A DNA stretch of 32,531 nt from Deltaproteobacteria bacterium RIFOXYD12_FULL_56_24 (GTDB lineage: Bacteria > Desulfobacterota > Desulfobulbia > Desulfobulbales > Desulfurivibrionaceae), in contig MGTD01000034.1 of the NCBI GenBank assembly GCA_001799285.1, positions 1-32,531 of the forward strand, written 5' to 3'. Below are positions 17,818 to 32,470 of this stretch, piece after piece. Under the pieces are notes generated by a model. The model was not told where the DNA came from, did not search any database, and worked only from the letters and a program-made list of their open reading frames with translations. The first letter of the stretch is position 1; every line of letters begins with the position of its first letter. The position numbers were made by a program, and so were the translations under genes.

Positions 17818-17915
17818 AGGGGGGGTATTTGCCGCCATTACGCCGACAGGCCTCGAATGAATTCATTTATCTCGGGCACTGATTGACCGGGATGGTTTGG
17901 GATGAAAGGTACTGG

Positions 17916-18716
17916 ATGAAGAAAGATATTCAATCGCGCCTCGACGCAATAGAGCACTCCTTCGGGGTGAAAATTCTCTATGCCTGCGAATCCGGCAGCC
18001 GCGCCTGGGGCTTTGCCTCGCGGGACAGCGATTGGGATGTACGCTTTATTTACCTGCACCCGCCGGACTGGTACCTCTCCATCGATGTCGAGCGCAAGCG
18101 GGATGTGATAGAAGAGGTTACGGGCGACCTGGACATCAGCGGCTGGGATCTCCGCAAGGCCCTCTGGTTGTTGCACAAGAGCAACCCGCCCCTGATCGAA
18201 TGGCTCAACTCGCCGATCATCTACGCCGACCGGTTTGAACTTGCGGCCAGGCTGCGGGCTATCTCCGGCCTGTACTACTCGCCGACGGCTTGCCGACATC
18301 ATTATCGGCACATGGCCGAAGGGAACTTTCGCGAGTATCTGCGCGGAGAGATCGTCCGAACCAAGAAGTACCTTTATGTGCTGCGGCCATTGCTGGCCCT
18401 GCGCTGGATCGAAACGAGGGGAGGCCCGCCGCCGATGCCCTTTGCAACGCTGGTGGACACCATGTTGCCTGATGACCTGCACAAGGAGGCGGTGCATGAG
18501 CTGCTCGCCTGCAAGAAGGCCGGGGTGGAACTGGGGGAGGGGCCAAGGATTCCGCTAATCAACGAGTTTGTTGAGCAGGAGTTGGCCCGGCTGGTGGTTG
18601 GGAGCAGTAAGAAAGGAACAGCGCCTAAGCCTTCATTGGAGCCGTTGAACCGGCTGTTTCGGGAAATGTTGGCTGAGGTGTGGGGAGAGGTTCAGTGTAA
18701 GGAGGGAATGGCGTGA
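17916..18716 (+). CDS. Predicted nucleotidyltransferase, YcgL/COG3541 type
   Basis: A 266-aa protein with a polymerase-beta-type nucleotidyltransferase core: ESGSRAWGFASRDSDWDVR (25-43), giving the GSR..G motif and the metal-binding D39 and D41. The C-terminal helical half (~95-260) fits the YcgL-like family, whose substrate is not established. The ATG at 17916 has AAGG 6 nt upstream; starts at 17883 (TTG) or 17892 add residues without similarity. The end overlaps the cas3 start by 4 nt (GTGA), so translation of cas3 is coupled to it. Together with the preceding SLOG gene it may be a nucleotide-signalling or modification pair tied to CRISPR expression (inference). Confidence 0.7.
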   Translation: MKKDIQSRLDAIEHSFGVKILYACESGSRAWGFASRDSDWDVRFIYLHPPDWYLSIDVERKRDVIEEVTGDLDISGWDLRKALWLLHKSNPPLIEWLNSPIIYADRFELAARLRAISGLYYSPTACRHHYRHMAEGNFREYLRGEIVRTKKYLYVLRPLLALRWIETRGGPPPMPFATLVDTMLPDDLHKEAVHELLACKKAGVELGEGPRIPLINEFVEQELARLVVGSSKKGTAPKPSLEPLNRLFREMLAEVWGEVQCKEGMA

Positions 18717-20974
18717 AATTTTATGCCCATAGTCTGGAAGGGGAGCCACCCGAAAAGTGGCAGCCATTGGAAGATCACCTGCGGAACGTGGCTGAACTTG
18801 CGGCAGAATTCGCCCAGCCCTTCGGCGGAGAGGAATGGGCCTGTCTCGCCGGGCTTTGGCACGATCTGGGTAAGTATTCGGAAGCCTTCCAGAAGAAACT
18901 CTATGACGCAAATGGAGTGGAGTGCCATATCGAGACCCAGCCGGGCCGGGTGGTCCACTCGGCAGCCGGCGGCCATCAGGCAAGCCTGCAGGGCTGGAAA
19001 GGTGTCGATCGAGTGTTTTCCTGGCTTATCATGGGTCATCATGCCGGGCTGACGGACTTTCATACGGACCATATCGGTTCGAAGGCTCTTGAGCCGAAAA
19101 TGCGTGAACCCGCCAGCTCGAAAGAAATCATCAAGAATGCACCGTCGTCAGTACTGGATCAGGCCAAGCCCCGGCAGCCCTTTCCTCCGGGAGCGGACCC
19201 GGCCCTGTTTATCCGGATGCTGTTTTCCTGTATTGTTGACGCTGATTTTCTCGATACGGAAGCCTTTATGAACAAGGGGAAGGCAACTCTGCGGAATAAA
19301 GGCTATCCGGAATTGAGTGAACTGCTGATCCATTTTGATGCCTACATGGATCAACTTTGCGTTGAAGCAGAGACTACATCCATAAATACAATTAGGGCAG
19401 AGGTCTTGTCTCAATGCCGGATGGCGGCTGACAAGGAGCCTGCCGTCTATTCCCTATCAGTCCCTACCGGCGGCGGCAAGACCCTGGCTTCACTTGCCTT
19501 TGCCCTGCGTCATGCGGTAAAGCACAAGGCAGGCCATGGGAAGAGCCGAATCATTTATGTGATTCCCTATACCAGCATCATTGAACAAACGGCGGATGTC
19601 TTTCGAAAGATTCCTGGATTCGAAAACGCGGTTGTCGAGCACCACAGTAACCTGGCCGAAACCGATGAGGATAAAGAAACCGTCCGCAACCGCCTGTCCG
19701 CCGAAAATTGGGACGCGCCGCTGATCGTCACCACCTCGGTGCAGTTCTTTGAATCCCTTTATGCCTGCCGGACCAGTCGCTGCCGCAAGTTGCATAATAT
19801 TGTCAACAGTGTGGTCATTTTTGACGAAGCCCAGTGCCTGCCGCCCGAATATCTGCGTCCTTCGGTCCATGCCGTGCGCGAGCTTTTCCGACATTATCAG
19901 GTCACACCCATGCTGTGTACAGCCACCCAGCCGGTTTTAAACCGGACCGAGTCCTTTGATTTTAAATTCAGGGAGGGGTTTGAATCGGTTACGGAGATTG
20001 TCGAGAACCCCGATGACCTGGCAGTGAGATTAAAGCGGGTGGAAGTAGTGTTATATCGAGATAACTTTCAGCCGGTTGAGCTGCCGGAACTTGCCGAGGC
20101 AATCAAAAAGGAAGGCAGGTCGGTTCTCTGTATTGTGAACAGGAAGGAGGATGCCCGCCGTTTGGCCCGGTTGTTGCCGAAGGAACAAACCATCCACCTT
20201 TCCACCAATATGTGCGCCGAGCATCGGACAAGCACCTTGGCCAAGGTGAGAGAAAGACTCGAAGACAAAAAGAACCCCATCATTGTGATCAGCACCTCGC
20301 TGGTTGAAGCCGGAGTGGATATTGATTTTCCGGTTGTGTATCGAGCCTTGACCGGGCTCGATTCCATCGCTCAGGCAGCCGGACGATGCAACCGTGAAGG
20401 TGGCCTGGAAGAGCATGGCCAAAAAGTACTTGGTAAAACCGTTGTTTTTGTCCCAGCCGATCAGCCGGGTTATGTCCGGCAGCCCGCCGGAATCGCCAGC
20501 GAATTATTACAGGGAAAGAATCTGGAAAATCTTCTTGCCCCGGCGAATTACGAAAAATATTTTCGGCAACGGTTCTGGCAACTGGGGGCGGAGTCACTGG
20601 ATGAAAAACAGATCATGGCGCTGTTGTCCGGGCGGATGAACTATTATTTTCGCACCGCCGCCCAACGCTTCAGGTTTATTGAGGATGATTGGCAGGAGAG
20701 CGTTTTGGTCCCTTACGGCAAGGCGATTGAACTCCTTGGCCGCCTGACCTCTGAGCCCTGGAACCAGTATGCGCTCTTGAGGCAGATAGGCCGTTATACC
20801 GTAGGCATTCCTCGGGACATGTTCGGGCCGCTGGCAGCCAGGGACTATATCAGGGAGTCCGGTTATCCCGGCCTGCTGATGCTTGACCTGGTGCTTTATG
20901 ACGACGATTTGGGATTTGTCCCGCCGGATGAGGCGACAGCTATTGATCCGGGAAAATTCATGGTGACAGACTAA
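18713..20974 (+). CDS. cas3: Cas3 nuclease-helicase, type I-C
   Basis: Degrades target DNA recruited by Cascade. The 753-aa protein has an N-terminal HD nuclease (H22, the WHDLGK motif with H50-D51, and MGHHAGL near 104-110), then a superfamily 2 helicase: Walker A PTGGGKT (~251-257), the DEAQ box (~371-374), and motifs V-VI STSLVEAGVDIDF and QAAGRCNREG (~553). All catalytic residues look intact. The start is GTG at 18713, with GGAGGG upstream, overlapping the nucleotidyltransferase stop by 4 nt. cas5 follows after 14 nt. Confidence 0.95.
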   Translation: MKFYAHSLEGEPPEKWQPLEDHLRNVAELAAEFAQPFGGEEWACLAGLWHDLGKYSEAFQKKLYDANGVECHIETQPGRVVHSAAGGHQASLQGWKGVDRVFSWLIMGHHAGLTDFHTDHIGSKALEPKMREPASSKEIIKNAPSSVLDQAKPRQPFPPGADPALFIRMLFSCIVDADFLDTEAFMNKGKATLRNKGYPELSELLIHFDAYMDQLCVEAETTSINTIRAEVLSQCRMAADKEPAVYSLSVPTGGGKTLASLAFALRHAVKHKAGHGKSRIIYVIPYTSIIEQTADVFRKIPGFENAVVEHHSNLAETDEDKETVRNRLSAENWDAPLIVTTSVQFFESLYACRTSRCRKLHNIVNSVVIFDEAQCLPPEYLRPSVHAVRELFRHYQVTPMLCTATQPVLNRTESFDFKFREGFESVTEIVENPDDLAVRLKRVEVVLYRDNFQPVELPELAEAIKKEGRSVLCIVNRKEDARRLARLLPKEQTIHLSTNMCAEHRTSTLAKVRERLEDKKNPIIVISTSLVEAGVDIDFPVVYRALTGLDSIAQAAGRCNREGGLEEHGQKVLGKTVVFVPADQPGYVRQPAGIASELLQGKNLENLLAPANYEKYFRQRFWQLGAESLDEKQIMALLSGRMNYYFRTAAQRFRFIEDDWQESVLVPYGKAIELLGRLTSEPWNQYALLRQIGRYTVGIPRDMFGPLAARDYIRESGYPGLLMLDLVLYDDDLGFVPPDEATAIDPGKFMVTD

Positions 20975-20988
20975 GAGGAGGTATCGGC

Positions 20989-21651
20989 ATGGAGAAAAGC
21001 AGTCCTTTCCGGTTAAAGGTGAGCGGTACCAATGCCTGCTTTACCAGGCCGGAGATGAAGGTGGAGCGGGTCAGTTACGATGTAATGACCCCGTCGGCGG
21101 CCCGTGGAATTCTTGAGGCAATTCTCTGGAAGCCCGCCATTGTCTGGAGAATTCTGCGGATAGATGTCCTAAATCCGGTGCGCTGGGAATCGGTGCGGCG
21201 CAACGAGGTGGGCGCGGTTGTCCCGGCGGGGACGGTAAAGACGGTAATGAACAGGGGAAGGGGTAATCTGGGCCTGTATGTAGAAAATGAGCGGCAACAG
21301 CGGGCCGGGCTTTTCCTGCGGGACGTGGCTTATGTGATCCACGCCGAATTTGCCATGACCGATCAGGCGGGTCCAGAGGACAGCGTTACAAAGTTCGAGC
21401 AGATGTTCATCCGCCGCGCGACGAGCGGCCAGTGTTTTCAGCGCCCCTATTTCGGCTGCCGGGAGTTTCCGGTTGATTTCGAGTTTCTGTCTCGGGAGCT
21501 GGAGTTACCGGCAGCCATTGAGGAGAGCCGCGATCTGGGCTGGATGCTGTACGACATGGATTATTCCGGCAAGGAGCCGATGCCGCAGTTCTTTCATGCC
21601 AGGATGGAGAACGGCAGCCTTGACCTCAGGAATGTGGAGGTGCGGTCATGA
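20989..21651 (+). CDS. cas5c: Cas5c (Cas5d), crRNA-processing subunit of type I-C
   Basis: A 220-aa RAMP protein. In type I-C systems, which lack Cas6, Cas5c cuts the pre-crRNA in the repeat and caps the crRNA 5' handle. The N-terminus (FRLKVSGTNACFTRPEMKVERVSYD, given here in part) and the following TPSAARGILEAILWKP match the Cas5d family, and its catalytic Tyr/Lys/His candidates lie in this region. It starts with an excellent AGGAGG site 7 nt upstream and overlaps cas8c by 4 nt (ATGA). Confidence 0.93.
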   Translation: MEKSSPFRLKVSGTNACFTRPEMKVERVSYDVMTPSAARGILEAILWKPAIVWRILRIDVLNPVRWESVRRNEVGAVVPAGTVKTVMNRGRGNLGLYVENERQQRAGLFLRDVAYVIHAEFAMTDQAGPEDSVTKFEQMFIRRATSGQCFQRPYFGCREFPVDFEFLSRELELPAAIEESRDLGWMLYDMDYSGKEPMPQFFHARMENGSLDLRNVEVRS

Positions 21652-23393
21652 TCCTCAAGTCATTATCTGACCATTACGAACGTATGCTCAACGACCCTGG
21701 TTGTGATGTGGCACCGCCGGGATTTGAAAAAAAGGCTATCCCTTTTCTACTGATTATCAATAAAGCAGGCTCTTTTATCAATTTACGGGATACTCGACTT
21801 GGAGAAGGCAAAAAGAAGGTTGCCCGTGAATTCGTGGTCCCTCAAGGAGAGAAAAAGACCTCTGGCATTAAATCTAATCTTCTTTGGGACAGCCCGCAGT
21901 ATGTGCTTGGTGTTTCAAAGGGAGAAGAAGAAAAAGACAGGGATAGGGCGGCAGAATCTTTATCAGAGTTTGAGAAGAAACTGGATGAGACCTTCGGGAG
22001 TGACTTTTCTGATGAGGGCATTGTTGCTGTCAGGAATTTTCTCGCAAAAAAGGATTTCACGGAAATTTTTAAGCATGTTGCGTGGCCCGAAATAAAAGAA
22101 AACAATTCCAACCTGACCTTTGTATTGGAAGGTGATGAACGGCTAGTGTCCCAGCGGCAACAAGTCTTGCAAACGCTGATGACGAAGACACACCCCTCCG
22201 CATCAACACAAACATGCGCTATTTCAGGGGCAGATGATACACCCGCAGAATTGCATACATCAATCAAAGGAGTATGGGGTGCGCAGTCTTCTGGTGCCAA
22301 TATCGTTTCTTTTAATCTTGATGCTTTTCGCTCTTTTGGCAAAAAGCAGGGGTTAAACGCGCCGGTTGGAAAGCGCACGGTTTTTGCCTATACCACGGCG
22401 CTTAATACGCTCCTTGCAAAAGGATCAAGCCAACGCATCCAGGTGGGTGACGCCAGCACTGTTTTTTGGGCAAGTGCAACCCATCCTTTTGAGGATGACT
22501 TTTCCTGTTTCCTTGGGGAGCCCCCAAAGGGCGAAGAGCCGGATTATGGGAAAATACGTGCTCTCTTGTCATCCGTCAGAACAGGGGTGCTTCCTGCCGA
22601 GGATGAAATGTCGTTTCATGTCCTCGGTCTAGCTCCCAACGCTTCTCGAATCGCCATCCGGTTCTGGTATGAGGGTAGCATCCGGGATCTCAAGAAAAAA
22701 ATTGCCCAGCATTTTGAGGATATGGAAATTGTCCGTGCCCCACATGATCGGGAATTTCTCTCATTGTTTCAATTGCTGGTTTCAACTGCGGCAGAGGGAA
22801 AAGCGGATAATATTCCTCCCAATCTTGGCGGTGAGATCGCGCGGGCGGTTCTCAGTGGCGGCGGCTACCCGCGAACATTGCTGGCGGGTGCGATCCGTCG
22901 CTGCAAGGCTGAACAGAGAATTAATCACGCACGAGCCGCTCTCATTAAAGGTTTCTTGGTCCGCGATTCACGACTTCGAGGAATAACAACAAAGGAGGTT
23001 GGTATGGCTTTGGATAAGACAATCGAAAATCCCGGTTATGTTCTTGGCAGGCTGTTTGCCGTGTTGGAGCGCATTCAAGAACAGGCCCATGCCGGGCTCA
23101 ACAAGACAATCCGCGACACCTATTTCAGCGCGGCAACAAGCAACCCGCTGGTGATTTTCAAGCGTTTGCAGGATTTAGCCATTCATCATCTTGCCAAGAT
23201 CAGAAATTCCGGCAAGAGCACGGTGTGGCTGGACAAACTCATGCAGGAGGTCATGGGCAAGGTTCCGGCCAGTGGTGTTCCGGTAACATTGACCCTCGAA
23301 GACCAGGGCCGATTTGCCGTGGGCTATTACCATCAGCGGCAGGATTTTTTCAATAAAAATGAGAATGAGACAAAGGAGAACAACGATGAGTGA
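21648..23393 (+). CDS. cas8c: Cas8c (Csd1), large subunit of type I-C Cascade
   Basis: A 581-aa large subunit that recognises the PAM and supports R-loop formation. The N-terminal part ([15 protein letters not shown]) and the central [20 protein letters not shown] segment are typical of Csd1/Cas8c. The start overlaps cas5c by 4 nt, and the end overlaps cas7c by 8 nt. The 3' part holds an internal in-frame start for Cas11c. The first two thirds look more AT-rich than cas5c and cas7c, which may reflect faster evolution or exchange of this PAM-reading subunit. Confidence 0.93.
23004..23393 (+). CDS. cas11c: Cas11c small subunit from internal start in cas8c
   Basis: Inside cas8c and in the same frame (codon 453), an ATG at 23004 is preceded by AAAGGAGGTTGGT, a near-perfect ribosome site placed correctly. 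The 129-aa product ([18 protein letters not shown]...) is helical and of the size expected for Cas11c. Separate translation of Cas11 from the cas8 3' end is established for type I-C systems and completes the Cascade belly. The site inside the coding frame is too good to be accidental. Confidence 0.85.
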
Positions 23394-24246
23394 TCCAATC
23401 AAAAACCGCTATGAATTTGTCCTGCTGTTCGATGTTAAAGACGGCAACCCCAATGGCGACCCGGACGCCGGCAATCTACCCCGCATTGATCCGGAAACCG
23501 GCAATGGCCTGGTGACTGATGTCTGCCTGAAACGCAAGGTCAGAAACTATGTCGGTCTGGTTCATGGCGAACAGCCCCCTTATGAGATTTACGTTAAGGA
23601 AAAGGCCGTTCTGAACAGGCAGCATGAGAGGGCATACCAGGCATTCGAGCTTAAACCGGAAAGTAAAAAATTACCCAAGAACGAAGAGGATGCCCGCAAG
23701 ATCACCGGCTGGATGTGTAAGAATTTTTTTGATGTCCGGGCCTTTGGCGCGGTCATGTCAACCGAGGTCAATGCCGGTCAGGTTCGTGGCCCGGTGCAGT
23801 TTGCCTTCGGAAGAAGCATTGACCGGGTGTTCACCGGAGAGCACAGCATCACCCGCATGGCGGTCACCAACGAAAAAGACCTGGAGAAAGAGCGGACCAT
23901 GGGCCGGAAGTTTACCGTTCCTTACGGCCTCTACCGCGTCCACGGCTTCATCTCCGCGCCGCTGGCCAAACAGACCGGTTTTTCAGAAGGCGATCTGGAG
24001 TTGTTCTGGAAATCATTACAGAACATGTTCGATCATGACCGCTCTGCGGCCCGTGGCGAAATGGCGGCTCAGAAACTGATCGTCTTCAAGCACGAGAGCG
24101 AACTTGGCAACGCCCCGGCCCATAAGCTTTTCGATCTGGTTACGGTTGAAAAGAACTGCGGCGATGCGCCACCTAGGTCGTTTGGTGATTATGACGTGGC
24201 AGTCGGTGCAGCGCCAGCAGGGGTCGAGCGGATTGAAATGCTGTAA
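23386..24246 (+). CDS. cas7c: Cas7c (Csd2), backbone subunit of type I-C Cascade
   Basis: A 286-aa RAMP protein that coats the crRNA spacer and builds the Cascade filament. The N-terminus [20 protein letters not shown] is diagnostic of Csd2/Cas7, followed by [12 protein letters not shown]. The chosen ATG at 23386 has GGAG upstream and overlaps the cas8c stop (ATGAGTGA). The frame extends further left without similarity. The gene is followed by a 19-nt gap and then by a gene that is not part of the canonical operon. Confidence 0.95.
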
Positions 24247-24265: not shown

Positions 24266-25132
24266 ATGCACCCGAAACTTGAAAAACAATTCCGGGAGCG
24301 GGCGGTGGCGCTGGGCGAGTCCGGCGACCCGGCCGTTTTGCCGGAGCTTGTCGAGCTGACGCTCTCGCCCGTTGCCAATGTGCGGCGGCTGGCAGCCTCG
24401 GCCATCGGCAAGCTGGCTGGATTGGCGGACTCCAAGGGGGCGGTGACGGCATTGCAGCCCCTGCTTCAGGATGGCCACCCCCAGGTTCGGCAGTATGCGG
24501 CAAAGGCTTTGGGTACTTATGGGGTATCTGCCCGAGGCGCCCTTGCCGATCTGCGCGACATGGCCATTAACCCGGCGGAAAAGGAATATAACCACGACGG
24601 GGCGAAGAGGGCGATCGAACTCATCGAGGAGGCGGGCCGAATTCTGGAGCAGCAAGCCGAGCATTGTTGCCAGCGCTGCGGCGTCAAGTTGGAGCCGGAC
24701 GAATATGTCCGCAGCCGGCAGGCCTTTCAGCGACCTTTTTGCAACTACTGCTTCGACGAAGTGTTCCTTGAACGGCGCAACTTCGAAACCAAGGTGGAAC
24801 TGCAGAAAAACATCCGTGCCAAGGACGGTACTTGGGTGCAGTCGGACGGCGAACGGCTGATTTGCGAAATCCTCGACGAGGAGAGGATCAGATACCGGTA
24901 CGACGAGCGCTTTCGCATCCTCGACGGCTACGCCATCCGCCCCGATTTCTATCTGCCGGAATTCGATGTGTACATCGAATATTGGGGCATGGACACCGCC
25001 GATTACAAAATCGGCATGCTCAAAAAGCAACAACTCTATCAGCAGCAGGGCAAAAAACTTGTTTCACTCTTTCCGGAGGATAGATCGGGGATGCGGGAAA
25101 AATTGTTGAGCAAACTGGGGAAATACCGGTGA
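24266..25132 (+). CDS. HEAT-repeat / zinc-ribbon / PD-(D/E)XK nuclease protein in the cas operon
   Basis: A 288-aa protein not found in the standard I-C operon. Domains: HEAT/armadillo-like helical repeats (~14-105, with VRRLAASAIGKLAGL and VRQYAAKALGTYGV); a helical linker; a four-Cys zinc ribbon (C135, C138, C159, C162); and a C-terminal restriction-endonuclease-fold domain (~190-288). The last has an early acidic E196 (SDGERLICEIL), RPDFYLPE with D227, and VYIEYWG with E238. The usual Lys two residues after that Glu is W240; K248, K253 or K254 in the next helix could supply it, as in helicase-linked nucleases with YIEYWG-like motifs. The ATG at 24266 has GAGGTGAT upstream. It sits 19 nt after cas7c and 61 nt before cas4. 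Its role in interference or adaptation is unknown. Confidence 0.75.
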   Translation: MHPKLEKQFRERAVALGESGDPAVLPELVELTLSPVANVRRLAASAIGKLAGLADSKGAVTALQPLLQDGHPQVRQYAAKALGTYGVSARGALADLRDMAINPAEKEYNHDGAKRAIELIEEAGRILEQQAEHCCQRCGVKLEPDEYVRSRQAFQRPFCNYCFDEVFLERRNFETKVELQKNIRAKDGTWVQSDGERLICEILDEERIRYRYDERFRILDGYAIRPDFYLPEFDVYIEYWGMDTADYKIGMLKKQQLYQQQGKKLVSLFPEDRSGMREKLLSKLGKYR

Positions 25133-25193
25133 CTCGCTGCGCGTCTGCTTTGCAATGTCACCATCTCGGAGCAACAGCGGAGTAAGTGAAAAA

Positions 25194-25901
25194 ATGATGC
25201 ACAGCGAAGACGACCTGCTGCCGCTCTCGGCCTTGCAGCATCTGCTGTTTTGTGAGCGGCAGTGCGCCTTGATCCATGTCGAACAGGTGTGGAGCGAGAA
25301 TTTGTTCACCGCCGAAGGGCGCATCCTCCATGAGCGGGTTGACAGCGGGGAGCGACAAACCCGCAACGATGTTCGCACCGAAACGGCGGTGGCCCTGCGT
25401 TCCTTTCGCCTCGGGCTGTCCGGTAAGGCGGATGTGATCGAGTACCACCGCGATGCCCAGGGCAATTGGCAGCCCTTTCCGGTGGAGTACAAGCGGGGCA
25501 AGCCCAAGGCGGCCAACTGGGATCAGGTGCAGCTCTGCGCCCAGGCTCTTTGCCTTGAAGAGATGCTCGACTGCCTCGTGCCGGAAGGGGCCTTGTTTTA
25601 CGGGACAAATCGGCGGCGGCAGGTGGTACGCTTTGATGAAAAGTTGCGGCGGGAAACCGAGGAGGCGGCCAGCCGGTTACATGCGCTGATTAGTTCCGGC
25701 ACCACCCCGCCCGCCCGCTATGAAAAAAAATGCGAGAGCTGTTCGCTCCTGAATCTCTGTATGCCCAAGGTGGCGGGGGCGAAAAAGAATGTGAGCCGAT
25801 ATCTTGCACGGATACTGACTGAGGAAGCAGTTGTCCAGGATTCCTTGACAACTGCTTCTGACGGGAAAAGCTCTGCCGGGTCAATTGGTGAATCGTCATG
25901 A
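25194..25901 (+). CDS. cas4: Cas4 exonuclease of the adaptation module
   Basis: A 235-aa RecB-like iron-sulfur nuclease that trims prespacers and selects the PAM together with Cas1-Cas2. An N-terminal Cys lies in LLFCERQCALIH; the nuclease core has GKADVIEY and PVEYKRGKPK (the D-x(n)-E-x-K motif); then comes QLCAQALCLEEML. The C-terminal CESCSLLNLCMP cysteines complete the cluster. The start at 25194 (or 25197) gives the family N-terminus HSEDDLLPLSALQHLLFC; a longer start at 25155 lacks a ribosome site. The stop overlaps cas1 by 4 nt. A perfect 12-bp inverted repeat lies near the 3' end. Confidence 0.93.
   Translation: MMHSEDDLLPLSALQHLLFCERQCALIHVEQVWSENLFTAEGRILHERVDSGERQTRNDVRTETAVALRSFRLGLSGKADVIEYHRDAQGNWQPFPVEYKRGKPKAANWDQVQLCAQALCLEEMLDCLVPEGALFYGTNRRRQVVRFDEKLRRETEEAASRLHALISSGTTPPARYEKKCESCSLLNLCMPKVAGAKKNVSRYLARILTEEAVVQDSLTTASDGKSSAGSIGESS
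25824..25858 (+). other. Perfect inverted repeat in the 3' end of cas4
   Basis: GAAGCAGTTGTC (25824-25835) and GACAACTGCTTC (25847-25858) form a perfect 12-bp stem with an 11-nt loop, about 40 nt before the cas1 start. No T run follows, so it is not a standard terminator. It could stabilise mRNA or affect cas1 translation. Confidence 0.55.
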
Positions 25902-26929
25902 AAAAACTCCTCAACACCCTCTATGTCACCACTCAAGGCGCATATCTGGCGCGGGAAGGCGAAACCGTGTTGGTGCGGGTGGAGAAGGAAACCCGCCTTC
26001 AGGTGCCGGTTCATACCCTTTCCGGCATCGTCTGCTTTGGGCAGGTTTCGTGCAGCCCGTTTTTGCTTGGCCTTTGTGCCGAGCGCGGGGTGGGAGTCAG
26101 CCTGCTCACCGAAAACGGCCGATTCCTTGCGCGGGTCCAGGGGCCGGTTTCCGGCAATGTCCTGTTGCGGCGGCAGCAGTACCGCTGGGCCGACGATGGG
26201 GATCGGTCTGCCGATTTGTCCCGCTCCTTTCTGATCGGCAAAATCGCCAACAGCCGCACCGTGCTCCAGCGGGCCTTACGCGATCACCGGGAAAAACCGG
26301 GGGGCGAGGACCTTGAAGGGGCGTCCGTCCGACTGCGGTTTTCTTTGGAGCAGCTGCCGCGTGCCGCTTCCCTGGACACGCTGCGCGGCATTGAAGGGGA
26401 TGCGGCCGGGACCTATTTCGGGGTGTTCAACCATCTGATTACCGCCCAGAAGGAGGATTTCCTGTTTCACGAACGTAGCCGCAGGCCGCCGCTCGACAAG
26501 GTGAATTGCCTTCTCTCTTTCGTTTACACCCTGGTGATGCACGATATCCGCAGCGCCTTGGAATCGGTGGGACTCGACCCGGCGGTCGGCTTTCTTCATC
26601 GGGATCGGCCTGGGCGGGCCAGTCTGGCCTTGGATCTGATGGAGGAGTTCCGACCGGTACTGGCGGATCGCCTGGTGCTTTCCCTAATCAACCTTGGGGT
26701 GATGAAAAAATCCGGTTTCCGGCAGGCTGAAACCGGTGGGGTGACCATGGATGCCGATACCAGAAAAGCACTGCTGGTTGCCTACCAGAAACGAAAGCAG
26801 GAGGAGATCAATCATCCGTTTCTCAATGAAAAGATCGAAATCGGCCTGTTGCCCTTTGCCCAGGCGCTCCTGCTGGCCCGGCATGTGCGCGGCGATCTGG
26901 ATGGGTATCCGCCGTTTATCTGGAAGTGA
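25898..26929 (+). CDS. cas1: Cas1 integrase
   Basis: A 343-aa metal-dependent integrase that inserts spacers at the leader end with Cas2. Typical I-C features are the N-terminal LLNTLYVTTQGAYLAREGE, the central GIEGDAAGTYFGVFN (catalytic Glu region), and LDKVNCLLSFVYTLV followed by GLDPAVGFLHRDRPGRASLA, where the conserved His and Asp lie. The ATG overlaps the cas4 stop (ATGA). The length fits the family, and no damage is seen. Confidence 0.95.
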   Translation: MKKLLNTLYVTTQGAYLAREGETVLVRVEKETRLQVPVHTLSGIVCFGQVSCSPFLLGLCAERGVGVSLLTENGRFLARVQGPVSGNVLLRRQQYRWADDGDRSADLSRSFLIGKIANSRTVLQRALRDHREKPGGEDLEGASVRLRFSLEQLPRAASLDTLRGIEGDAAGTYFGVFNHLITAQKEDFLFHERSRRPPLDKVNCLLSFVYTLVMHDIRSALESVGLDPAVGFLHRDRPGRASLALDLMEEFRPVLADRLVLSLINLGVMKKSGFRQAETGGVTMDADTRKALLVAYQKRKQEEINHPFLNEKIEIGLLPFAQALLLARHVRGDLDGYPPFIWK

Positions 26930-26938
26930 GGTGAAACG

Positions 26939-27229
26939 ATGTTCGTGTTGGTGACCTATGACGTGGCCACCTCTGAGCCGGGAGGGCAGAAGCGGCTGCG
27001 GCGGGTGGCCAAGGCATGCAAGAATTTCGGCCAGCGGGTGCAGTTTTCGGTTTTCGAGTGCATTGTCGATCCGGCCCAGTGGACAGCGCTCCGGCAACGC
27101 CTCGAATCCGAAATCGACCCGGAAACGGACAGCCTGCGCTTCTACTTTCTTGGCTCCAATTGGCGGCATCGTGTGGATCATGTGGGGGCCAAGGCCTCCT
27201 TTGATCAAGAAGGACCACTCATCGTTTGA
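26939..27229 (+). CDS. cas2: Cas2
   Basis: A 96-aa ferredoxin-fold protein that forms the centre of the Cas1-Cas2 complex. It starts MFVLVTYDVAT, the conserved first strand with the Asp, and continues RLRRVAKACKNFGQRVQFSV, close to the family pattern. GAGGTGAAACG precedes the ATG, 9 nt after cas1. It is the last gene before the leader. Confidence 0.95.
   Translation: MFVLVTYDVATSEPGGQKRLRRVAKACKNFGQRVQFSVFECIVDPAQWTALRQRLESEIDPETDSLRFYFLGSNWRHRVDHVGAKASFDQEGPLIV

Positions 27230-32470
<5,241 letters not shown>

Follow-up and report, generated by a model that had tools for sequence, protein, structure and literature searches.

A gene for a 288-residue protein that combines HEAT repeats, a four-cysteine zinc ribbon and a nuclease-like domain separates cas7c from cas4 in a complete type I-C CRISPR-cas operon, on a 32,531-nt stretch of DNA from Deltaproteobacteria bacterium RIFOXYD12_FULL_56_24 (contig MGTD01000034.1, assembly GCA_001799285.1), analysed at its full length and called the window below. 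As judged from sequence comparisons, this gene, hereafter the HEAT gene, is mobile relative to its neighbouring genes, and copies carrying the same short element occupy unrelated contexts. We propose, with a confidence slightly short of even, that it is a mobile single-gene nuclease cassette, similar to a homing endonuclease gene, and that it has inserted into type I cas operons again and again. What moves seems to consist of hardly anything beyond the open reading frame (ORF), in many copies together with a short stem-loop at one or both ends. The N-terminal HEAT repeats and zinc ribbon would probably recognise DNA, as suggested by their fold and by what is known of homing endonucleases, and the C-terminal domain, with a PD-(D/E)XK fold like those of Vsr and I-Bth0305I, would probably nick or cut it. 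We infer that the element, or a site close to where cas4 begins, is recognised and nicked or cut by the protein, and that recombination following cleavage would copy the gene into the new site. Type I cas operons have been entered several times, most often directly upstream of cas4, and in type I-C the entry point is a variable cargo slot between the effector and adaptation modules. Once inside an operon, the gene stays intact and under purifying selection, so that the CRISPR system may have come to profit from it. A more far-reaching version, which we consider unlikely, makes the gene and its own stem-loop end a minimal mobile element that has no transposase or integrase of its own, spreads in chromosomes with a preference for cas operons before cas4, and has repeatedly been tamed into a role in CRISPR adaptation.

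Copies of the gene in unrelated contexts

A first scan of a genome collection, by design enriched for close relatives, gave 74 loci (loci and genomes of the comparison sets are numbered with L and G, respectively). In 22 of them cas7 was found upstream and cas4 downstream of the HEAT gene; in L042 and L047 the gene stood between an upstream cas3 and a downstream cas4, and L010 begins at the HEAT gene with cas4 downstream. The unusual cas-linked loci that were checked turned out to be I-C or divergent I-C. Eleven loci were assigned to type I-G from ORF clusters, and three I-G loci were confirmed with Pfam (Cas4/1 fusion in L059, Csb1 in L068 and GSU0054 in L067), while most of the remaining loci had no cas genes in their vicinity. 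Evenly drawn samples of two phyla, that of the window (n = 395) and that of Pontiella sulfatireligans (G129, L066; n = 387), were used against sampling bias. In the window's phylum, the gene was present in 5 of 395 genomes, each time directly upstream of cas4, with cas7 on its other side in four cases and cas3 in one (G170); cas8c was found in 84 of the 395. In the Pontiella phylum, it occurred at 87 places (one place being counted per split gene) in 61 of 387 genomes, with up to five in one genome. Among the Cas1 matches listed, 16 of these places lay within 1.5 kb of cas1 and two more within 20 kb, and no cas1 was seen within 20 kb of the other 69, although draft contigs hide linkage; one of the 69, L240 (G837:C67), has cas3 right behind the HEAT gene at the contig end. 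A dedicated Cas role for the protein, as envisaged in a preliminary description made from the letters of the window, which suggested a second interference nuclease, a prespacer processor or an abortive effector, is only partly supported: none of the five copies in the window's phylum stood away from cas genes, all five preceding cas4, whereas homologues lay mostly away from cas genes in the Pontiella phylum (69 of 87).

Copies without a CRISPR context, termed solitary, adjoin unrelated and mostly housekeeping genes, including polA, carB, deoA, thrA, nadA, uvrA, acnA, metG and others. The neighbour scan covered 41 of 50 upstream and 38 of 49 downstream genes, the others having been excluded by hand, mostly as short or partial (among them those of L045, L071 and L074 upstream and of L037 and L049 downstream), and any given NCBIfam family appeared in at most two of the 41 upstream and two of the 38 downstream neighbours. 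The solitary list wrongly includes L240, also includes L052 and L017, and omits L070. A DNA-repair operon, considered because of the polA and uvrA neighbours, was rejected, since polA recurs only in related loci and the other neighbours were each found once or twice. A quick tree was made of 78 copies (proteins of 241 to 344 residues); on it, the I-C copies do not form one clade, and solitary and CRISPR copies interleave: the I-C label needs 12 changes, of which starred branches force at least seven (22 changes on average after shuffling), and the I-G label needs two. Pairs of tips joining a solitary and an I-C copy occur, for example L033 and L039 within a single genome (G106).

The history of the gene was compared with that of its cas neighbours by correlating protein distances over 21 I-C-like loci (20 plus the window), with L009, which has no cas2, and the cas3 gene left out; protein starts were untrimmed, some cas4 ORFs being overlong at their 5' ends. 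Correlations with the HEAT protein were 0.05 for cas1, 0.13 for cas4, 0.25 for cas8, 0.32 for both cas2 and cas5 and 0.37 for cas7; in the same loci, cas5, cas8 and cas7 agreed with one another at 0.86 to 0.89 and cas4 with cas1 at 0.52. The expected co-evolutionary linkage of the gene to the adaptation module was therefore not found, neither cas1 (p 0.35) nor cas4 (p 0.14) being significant, and cas8 likewise failed the Mantel test; in a 16-locus subset without five loci with divergent effectors, the correlation with cas1 reached 0.23 (p 0.04) and that with cas4 was 0.05. The window's operon is itself a mosaic. Its cas3, cas5 and cas7 are nearest to those of L013 (78, 83 and 87%), with cas8 as an exception (nearest L041, 65%), its cas4, cas1 and cas2 are nearest to those of G017, a family-level relative, or G090, an order-level one (81 to 88%), whose cas8 proteins are unrelated to that of the window (26 to 28%), and its HEAT protein is nearest, among the compared loci, to that of L009 (84%). 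Where related copies stand in different contexts, DNA similarity tends to end near the ends of the ORF, and in the loci read the copies are mostly intergenic or barely overlap their neighbours. The draft genome G142 holds eight HEAT matches at six places, several of them broken, which suggests multiplication and decay of the gene.

A stem-loop beside the gene and the fold of its protein

Comparing L025 (solitary) with L026 (I-C) brought out short repeats that flank the gene on both sides. Over the set of copies, a 37-nt element, R1, recurs immediately ahead of the start codon and in some cases behind the stop codon, consisting of GACGCnGTGGAG, a variable stem and loop, and CGnAACAAGTC. Its seven base pairs are intact in 93.9% of cells, and double changes number 28, compared to 8.8 after shuffling and at most 5 in slid versions, the structure having been drawn by eye on the same sequences. 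As single-strand folds, the elements are no more stable than shuffled sequences (z −0.1 to −1.1), and the notion of a very stable hairpin was dropped; since stability is ordinary, the case for a structure rests on covariation. This covarying stem-loop beside the HEAT gene is new here, and nothing in Rfam matched R1 at E values up to 1 (six loci). The same two loci, L025 and L026, also share a 55-bp block with an inverted half-element, which lies downstream of the gene in one and upstream in the other.

A covariance model of R1, built from 24 sequences picked beside HEAT genes, was run over 1.13 Mb of sequence surrounding 87 HEAT loci and gave 32 matches, none of them more than 95 nt from the gene (25 upstream and 7 downstream). 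Twenty-three of these are training sequences, and the nine outside the training set are those of L023, L033, L052, L055 and L095, the second matches of L060 and L098, and two in L071. In 91 other loci (0.59 Mb, including the window and three HEAT loci), the model found L196, a HEAT locus, and a weak match in L179 (E 0.41) not near a HEAT gene. When 78 whole genomes were scanned under stricter filters, scoring the best 86 first-look candidates of each, all 31 matches, from 26 genomes, lay beside the gene (24 training sequences and seven others), and none was found in the 47 genomes lacking it. A dispersed element of the REP type was accordingly rejected, there being no match away from the gene among the candidates scored.

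The window carries a different element behind its HEAT gene (Table 1), common to the close I-C copies and described by a second model, R2, with the window among its nine training sequences. R2 had no match in 87 control loci. A regular expression for the tail motif, written after the motif had been seen, gave eight extragenic rows from five distinct loci, all within 101 nt of the gene, and none elsewhere in 2.08 Mb. The only new R2 match near the gene was that of L047 (E 0.1, 22 nt behind the gene), and matches away from it were seen in L066/L092 (one locus), L067 and L079 (E 0.3 to 2.3). Because the training sequences of R2 come from the very group it describes, the tail element is less well established than R1.

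The protein matches the PADLOC model PDLC01150 (HEAT_CxxC_PDDEXK), which has the same three parts, over its full length (residues 1 to 288 of 288, E 3e-172). The family is thus already catalogued there and is not new to databases, although PADLOC gives a candidate name only and, as far as our searches show, describes neither mobility, nor the element, nor slot behaviour. The domain calls of the preliminary description (helical repeats, four-cysteine zinc ribbon and restriction-like nuclease) proved right. HEAT repeats are supported by Pfam and by a structure model made with AlphaFold2 (AF2), and the four cysteines are invariant in an alignment of 47 sequences that includes the window (Table 1), while the Pfam match to Zn_ribbon_2 is weak (E 0.024). 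Residues from about 192 to 288 are predicted to form an alpha-beta-beta-beta-alpha-beta domain, fitting the PD-(D/E)XK core fold. An AF2 model of the last 120 residues alone (31 sequences, pLDDT 84.3, pTM 0.79) had as its top fold match the catalytic domain of the homing endonuclease I-Bth0305I (3r3p; Z 10.5, rmsd 2.3 over 90 residues), in agreement with the expected nuclease fold, followed by two mitoribosome proteins (Z 10.4 and 10.1), Vsr (9.2), Bax1 (8.9) and TnsA (8.0); Foldseek, given the same model, returned nothing at E 0.001 or better.

The acidic site proposed earlier, E196, D227 and E238, is invariant in all 47 sequences, but the lysine expected of the motif is a tryptophan. K254, located in the next helix and invariant as well, might stand in for it, and catalysis by this domain is, judging from the residues conserved, likely but not certain. 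The I-Bth0305I family carries an EDxHD active-site signature; no histidine column was invariant or nearly so in the 47 sequences. A scan with the family alignment recovered at least 54 relatives on viral contigs, which, among the matches listed, all align only from residue 111 on; five of ten scanned carry NUMOD3, and several match phage endonuclease I. Compared with PHROG, the window protein (P0001) matched Holliday junction resolvase (2e-6), HNH endonuclease (2e-5) and homing endonuclease (4e-5) families.

The cas7-cas4 slot and competing explanations

The interval between cas7 and cas4 was surveyed in those sampled genomes of the window's phylum that have cas8c, as 80 stretches plus the window (81 of the 84 genomes); one stretch without cas7 and six without cas4 were dropped. 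Of the 74 readable slots (73 plus the window), 45 were empty, 4 held the HEAT gene (window included), 20 held other cargo or remnants and 5 were unclassified. The other cargo comprised S23/23S_rRNA_IVP-type, RhuM or RhuM-Fic, Bro-N and Fic genes, as identified by Pfam on representatives, and a PIN-like gene in L214 that was judged by eye, Pfam being silent. The cas7-cas4 junction of I-C is a general cargo slot. Examples of HEAT-less I-C loci with RhuM, Bro-N, 23S_rRNA_IVP-type or Fic genes at the junction are L150, L148, L204, L198 and L102; in L140 and L142, likewise without a HEAT gene, a Cas3-like gene stands there, and a Bro-N fragment lies beside the HEAT gene in L196. Short 5' remnants of cas4 precede the HEAT gene in L047 and L227, which by coordinates and scores are one genome, and precede other cargo in L190, L192 and L143. 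Such remnants suggest turnover of cargo, as if an older cas4 had been replaced, from near its 5' end, by new cargo together with another cas4. Of the 13 rows of the remnant search, those of the window, L009, L010, L013, L026, L053 and L235 were judged artefacts in which the query read into the HEAT gene in another frame, and L135 has a whole extra cas4.

Several observations weigh against a mobile cassette. R1 was found in only 27 of the 87 HEAT loci, mostly at one end of the gene, and the window's own copy has none, its best R1 score being 5.7 bits and its tail element not matching R1. The Mantel test was passed by the HEAT protein against cas2 (p 0.004), cas7 (p 0.013) and cas5 (p 0.018), and these weak correlations reflect some shared history with the cas neighbours. 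Three related loci (L016, L018 and L070) have polA upstream, so that some solitary copies were inherited in place, and two loci listed as solitary, L052 and L017, have Cas3-like helicase genes nearby. No clean empty site was proved; in the related genome G147, compared with L025, the alignment of carB stops at the insertion side, and the downstream side fails to align. The phage and plasmid collections held no copy of the family, and the protein departs from D-(D/E)-x-K, with the invariant W240 at the lysine position (E238-Y-W-G). Copies were broken in 5 of 56 cases on the solitary list, with one more at a contig edge, in 1 of 12 I-G cases and in none of 29 I-C-type cases, a list that excludes copies cut by contig ends; together with dN/dS values of 0.05 to 0.15 in 10 pairs of copies, the 29 intact copies are compatible with a useful function. 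Finally, 16 of 87 places beside cas1 are not explained by random mobility: by our estimate, random placement would bring much less than one of the 87 copies this close to cas1, so that the link to CRISPR is real, though a minority state in the Pontiella phylum.

The main alternative, possible but in our view doubtful, is that the gene is a domesticated adaptation accessory, its nuclease trimming or nicking prespacers or aiding integration by Cas4-Cas1-Cas2, and that it is kept beside cas4-cas1 for a benefit to spacer acquisition. Position speaks for this: the 16 near-cas1 places of the Pontiella phylum lie 29 to 1446 nt from cas1, 14 of them (628 to 989 nt) at a distance that fits one cas4-sized stretch between; the place ahead of cas4 is occupied repeatedly, in I-C, in I-G (with a Cas4/1 fusion behind the gene in L059, L072 and L236) and at divergent cas1 genes (L231, between a probable cas4 and cas1, and L232, the probable cas4 not being confirmed); and it is taken by all five copies of the window's phylum. 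Cas1 matches were also commoner in HEAT-bearing than in other genomes of the Pontiella phylum (41 of 61 vs 147 of 326, 188 of 387 overall; Fisher p 0.002), and the 29 I-C-type copies were all intact compared with the broken ones on the solitary list, a small difference. The correlations that passed the Mantel test and the case of L240 favour this explanation a little. Nevertheless, 69 of 87 places were not seen near cas1, 20 of the 61 genomes (drafts) had no Cas1 match at E 1e-10, and HEAT distances were not significantly related to those of cas1 or cas4 in the 21 loci, reaching p 0.04 for cas1 only in the 16-locus subset. Moreover, only 4 of 74 resolved slots of the window's phylum contain the gene, the slot also takes unrelated genes, and in L237 and L240 the gene stands upstream of cas3 instead.

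The variety of that cargo raises another explanation, a guard or abortive effector, in which toxin-like genes of the slot punish loss or failure of CRISPR, as in CreTA, and the HEAT nuclease is one of them. Apart from the RhuM(-Fic), Fic, Bro-N, S23-type and PIN-like (L214, by eye) genes, it could draw on a degenerate CRISPR-repeat-like stretch directly before the HEAT gene in L242 (G464), which scores 20, equal to the background maximum and above its 95th percentile of 18. In the window, however, the cas7-HEAT junction scores 18, at that percentile, and the match falls within the cas7 coding sequence, so that an antitoxin derived from a CRISPR repeat was not seen there. As no antitoxin partner is visible and solitary copies occur in genomes without a Cas1 match, we regard this explanation as improbable. 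We give very little credence to the idea that effector and adaptation modules change partners at the cas7-cas4 junction as a result of cutting by the HEAT protein. The mosaic of the window's operon would fit it (effector genes nearest L013, adaptation genes nearest G017 or G090, HEAT nearest L009), as would the parallel with nuclease genes at exchange boundaries of phages (PMC10448857), but the modules are equally decoupled without the gene, with rank correlations (rho) between cas7 and cas4 of 0.34 in 22 loci with HEAT, 0.10 in 44 empty slots and −0.10 in 27 with other cargo. The gene is thus not needed for this exchange, and decoupling being general, a role as its driver is unsupported. Least credible of all is a second interference nuclease working with Cascade and Cas3: the place between cas7 and cas4 and the PD-(D/E)XK fold agree with it, but most sampled I-C loci lack the gene, which also accompanies other subtypes and occurs where a genome has no Cas1 match.

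The proposed homing-like cassette has partial parallels among known systems. REP/RAYT pairs tie a single nuclease gene to a short structured element; the HEAT protein, in contrast, has a PD-(D/E)XK fold instead of being a Y1/HUH transposase, and R1 is found only at its gene, not dispersed. I-Bth0305I and the Vsr-like nucleases resemble it in the fold of the nuclease domain and in being encoded by a single mobile gene, but the HEAT protein adds the HEAT/zinc-ribbon part and has E-Y-W-G for E-x-K, the EDxHD signature was not seen in it, and its homing is putative. Free-standing homing endonuclease genes of phages are stand-alone genes beside important genes, with related copies at many places (PMC10448857), whereas the HEAT gene lies on bacterial chromosomes, in cas operons, and was not found in the phage collection. 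CreTA and other toxin modules embedded in cas operons (PMC9458426) are likewise extra genes within type I cas operons, but a Cascade-guided antitoxin RNA was not seen in the window. Titles and the openings of abstracts returned by a literature search contained no description of the family, its element or its slot; in the portions consulted, a 2025 classification paper (PMC12669027) has "heat" only in "heat map", and the word HEAT is absent from a phylogenomic study of Cas4 (PMC5704561). Novelty in print of the mobility, element and slot behaviour is not established. The PADLOC entry as such offers no more than its name. That name presumably goes back to a 2018 survey in PNAS.

The HEAT gene is real, and to call it a new Cas accessory would be too simple. 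What had been a candidate CRISPR accessory can now be tested as a mobile nuclease gene that repeatedly enters adaptive-immunity operons, with a specific DNA element now available to test as nuclease substrate, and, through the 74 loci read, the I-C cas7-cas4 junction is identified as a general cargo slot. Nucleases have a path from mobile elements into CRISPR systems, and the HEAT gene could be a case caught midway.

Gene arrangement in the window

Genes were called with a simple longest-ORF script, and the features of the window are collected in Table 1. The operon reads cas3-cas5-cas8-cas7-HEAT-cas4-cas1-cas2, and the HEAT ORF opens with ATG, as the preliminary description had it. Read directly from the sequence, the gaps are also those given there, 19 nt from cas7 to HEAT and 61 nt from HEAT to the in-frame ATG of cas4 at 25194. 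It had further reported overlaps of 4 to 8 nt between other genes of the operon; this holds for cas5-cas8 and cas4-cas1 (4 nt each), while the value for cas8-cas7 depends on the start of cas7, which is not settled. Its reading of an added gene at the junction of two modules was sound.

Table 1. Coordinates of the HEAT gene, its parts and the surrounding features in the window
Feature	Position	Strand	Evidence or remark
HEAT/zinc-ribbon/PD-(D/E)XK-fold gene, 288 aa	24266..25132	+	PADLOC HEAT_CxxC_PDDEXK
HEAT-repeat domain, residues 3-130	24272..24655	+	Pfam HEAT_2, E 1.5e-11; AF2 model resembles alphaRep/HEAT structures, Z up to 18.5
Four-Cys zinc ribbon, C135/C138/C159/C162	24668..24751	+	invariant in 47 sequences
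Predicted nuclease domain, residues 192-288	24839..25129	+	invariant E196, D227, E238, K254
Type 2 tail element, 31 nt, partly palindromic, from the HEAT stop codon	25130..25160	+	model R2, 25.0 bits
cas7c, upstream flank of the slot	23377..24246	+	start codon not settled
cas4, downstream flank of the slot	25194..25901	+	probable start ATG 25194; mechanical ORF opens at 25155
cas1c	25898..26929	+
cas2c	26939..27229	+
cas3, cas5c and cas8c, remaining effector module	18713..23393	+
CRISPR array, 76 exact 32-nt repeats and 75 spacers of 33-37 nt	27414..32421	+

Upstream of the operon, a nucleotidyltransferase gene of the RlaP family (17883-18716; PF10127, E 9e-91) overlaps the start of cas3 by 4 nt and had no homologue at E 1e-5 among the compared loci. 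In the CRISPR array, three spacers are present twice (at 27713 and 27979, 29569 and 31162, and 30496 and 31228). A further pair, at 29107 and 29306, is identical across 33 nt, and the spacer at 31759 seems to be a variant of that pair.

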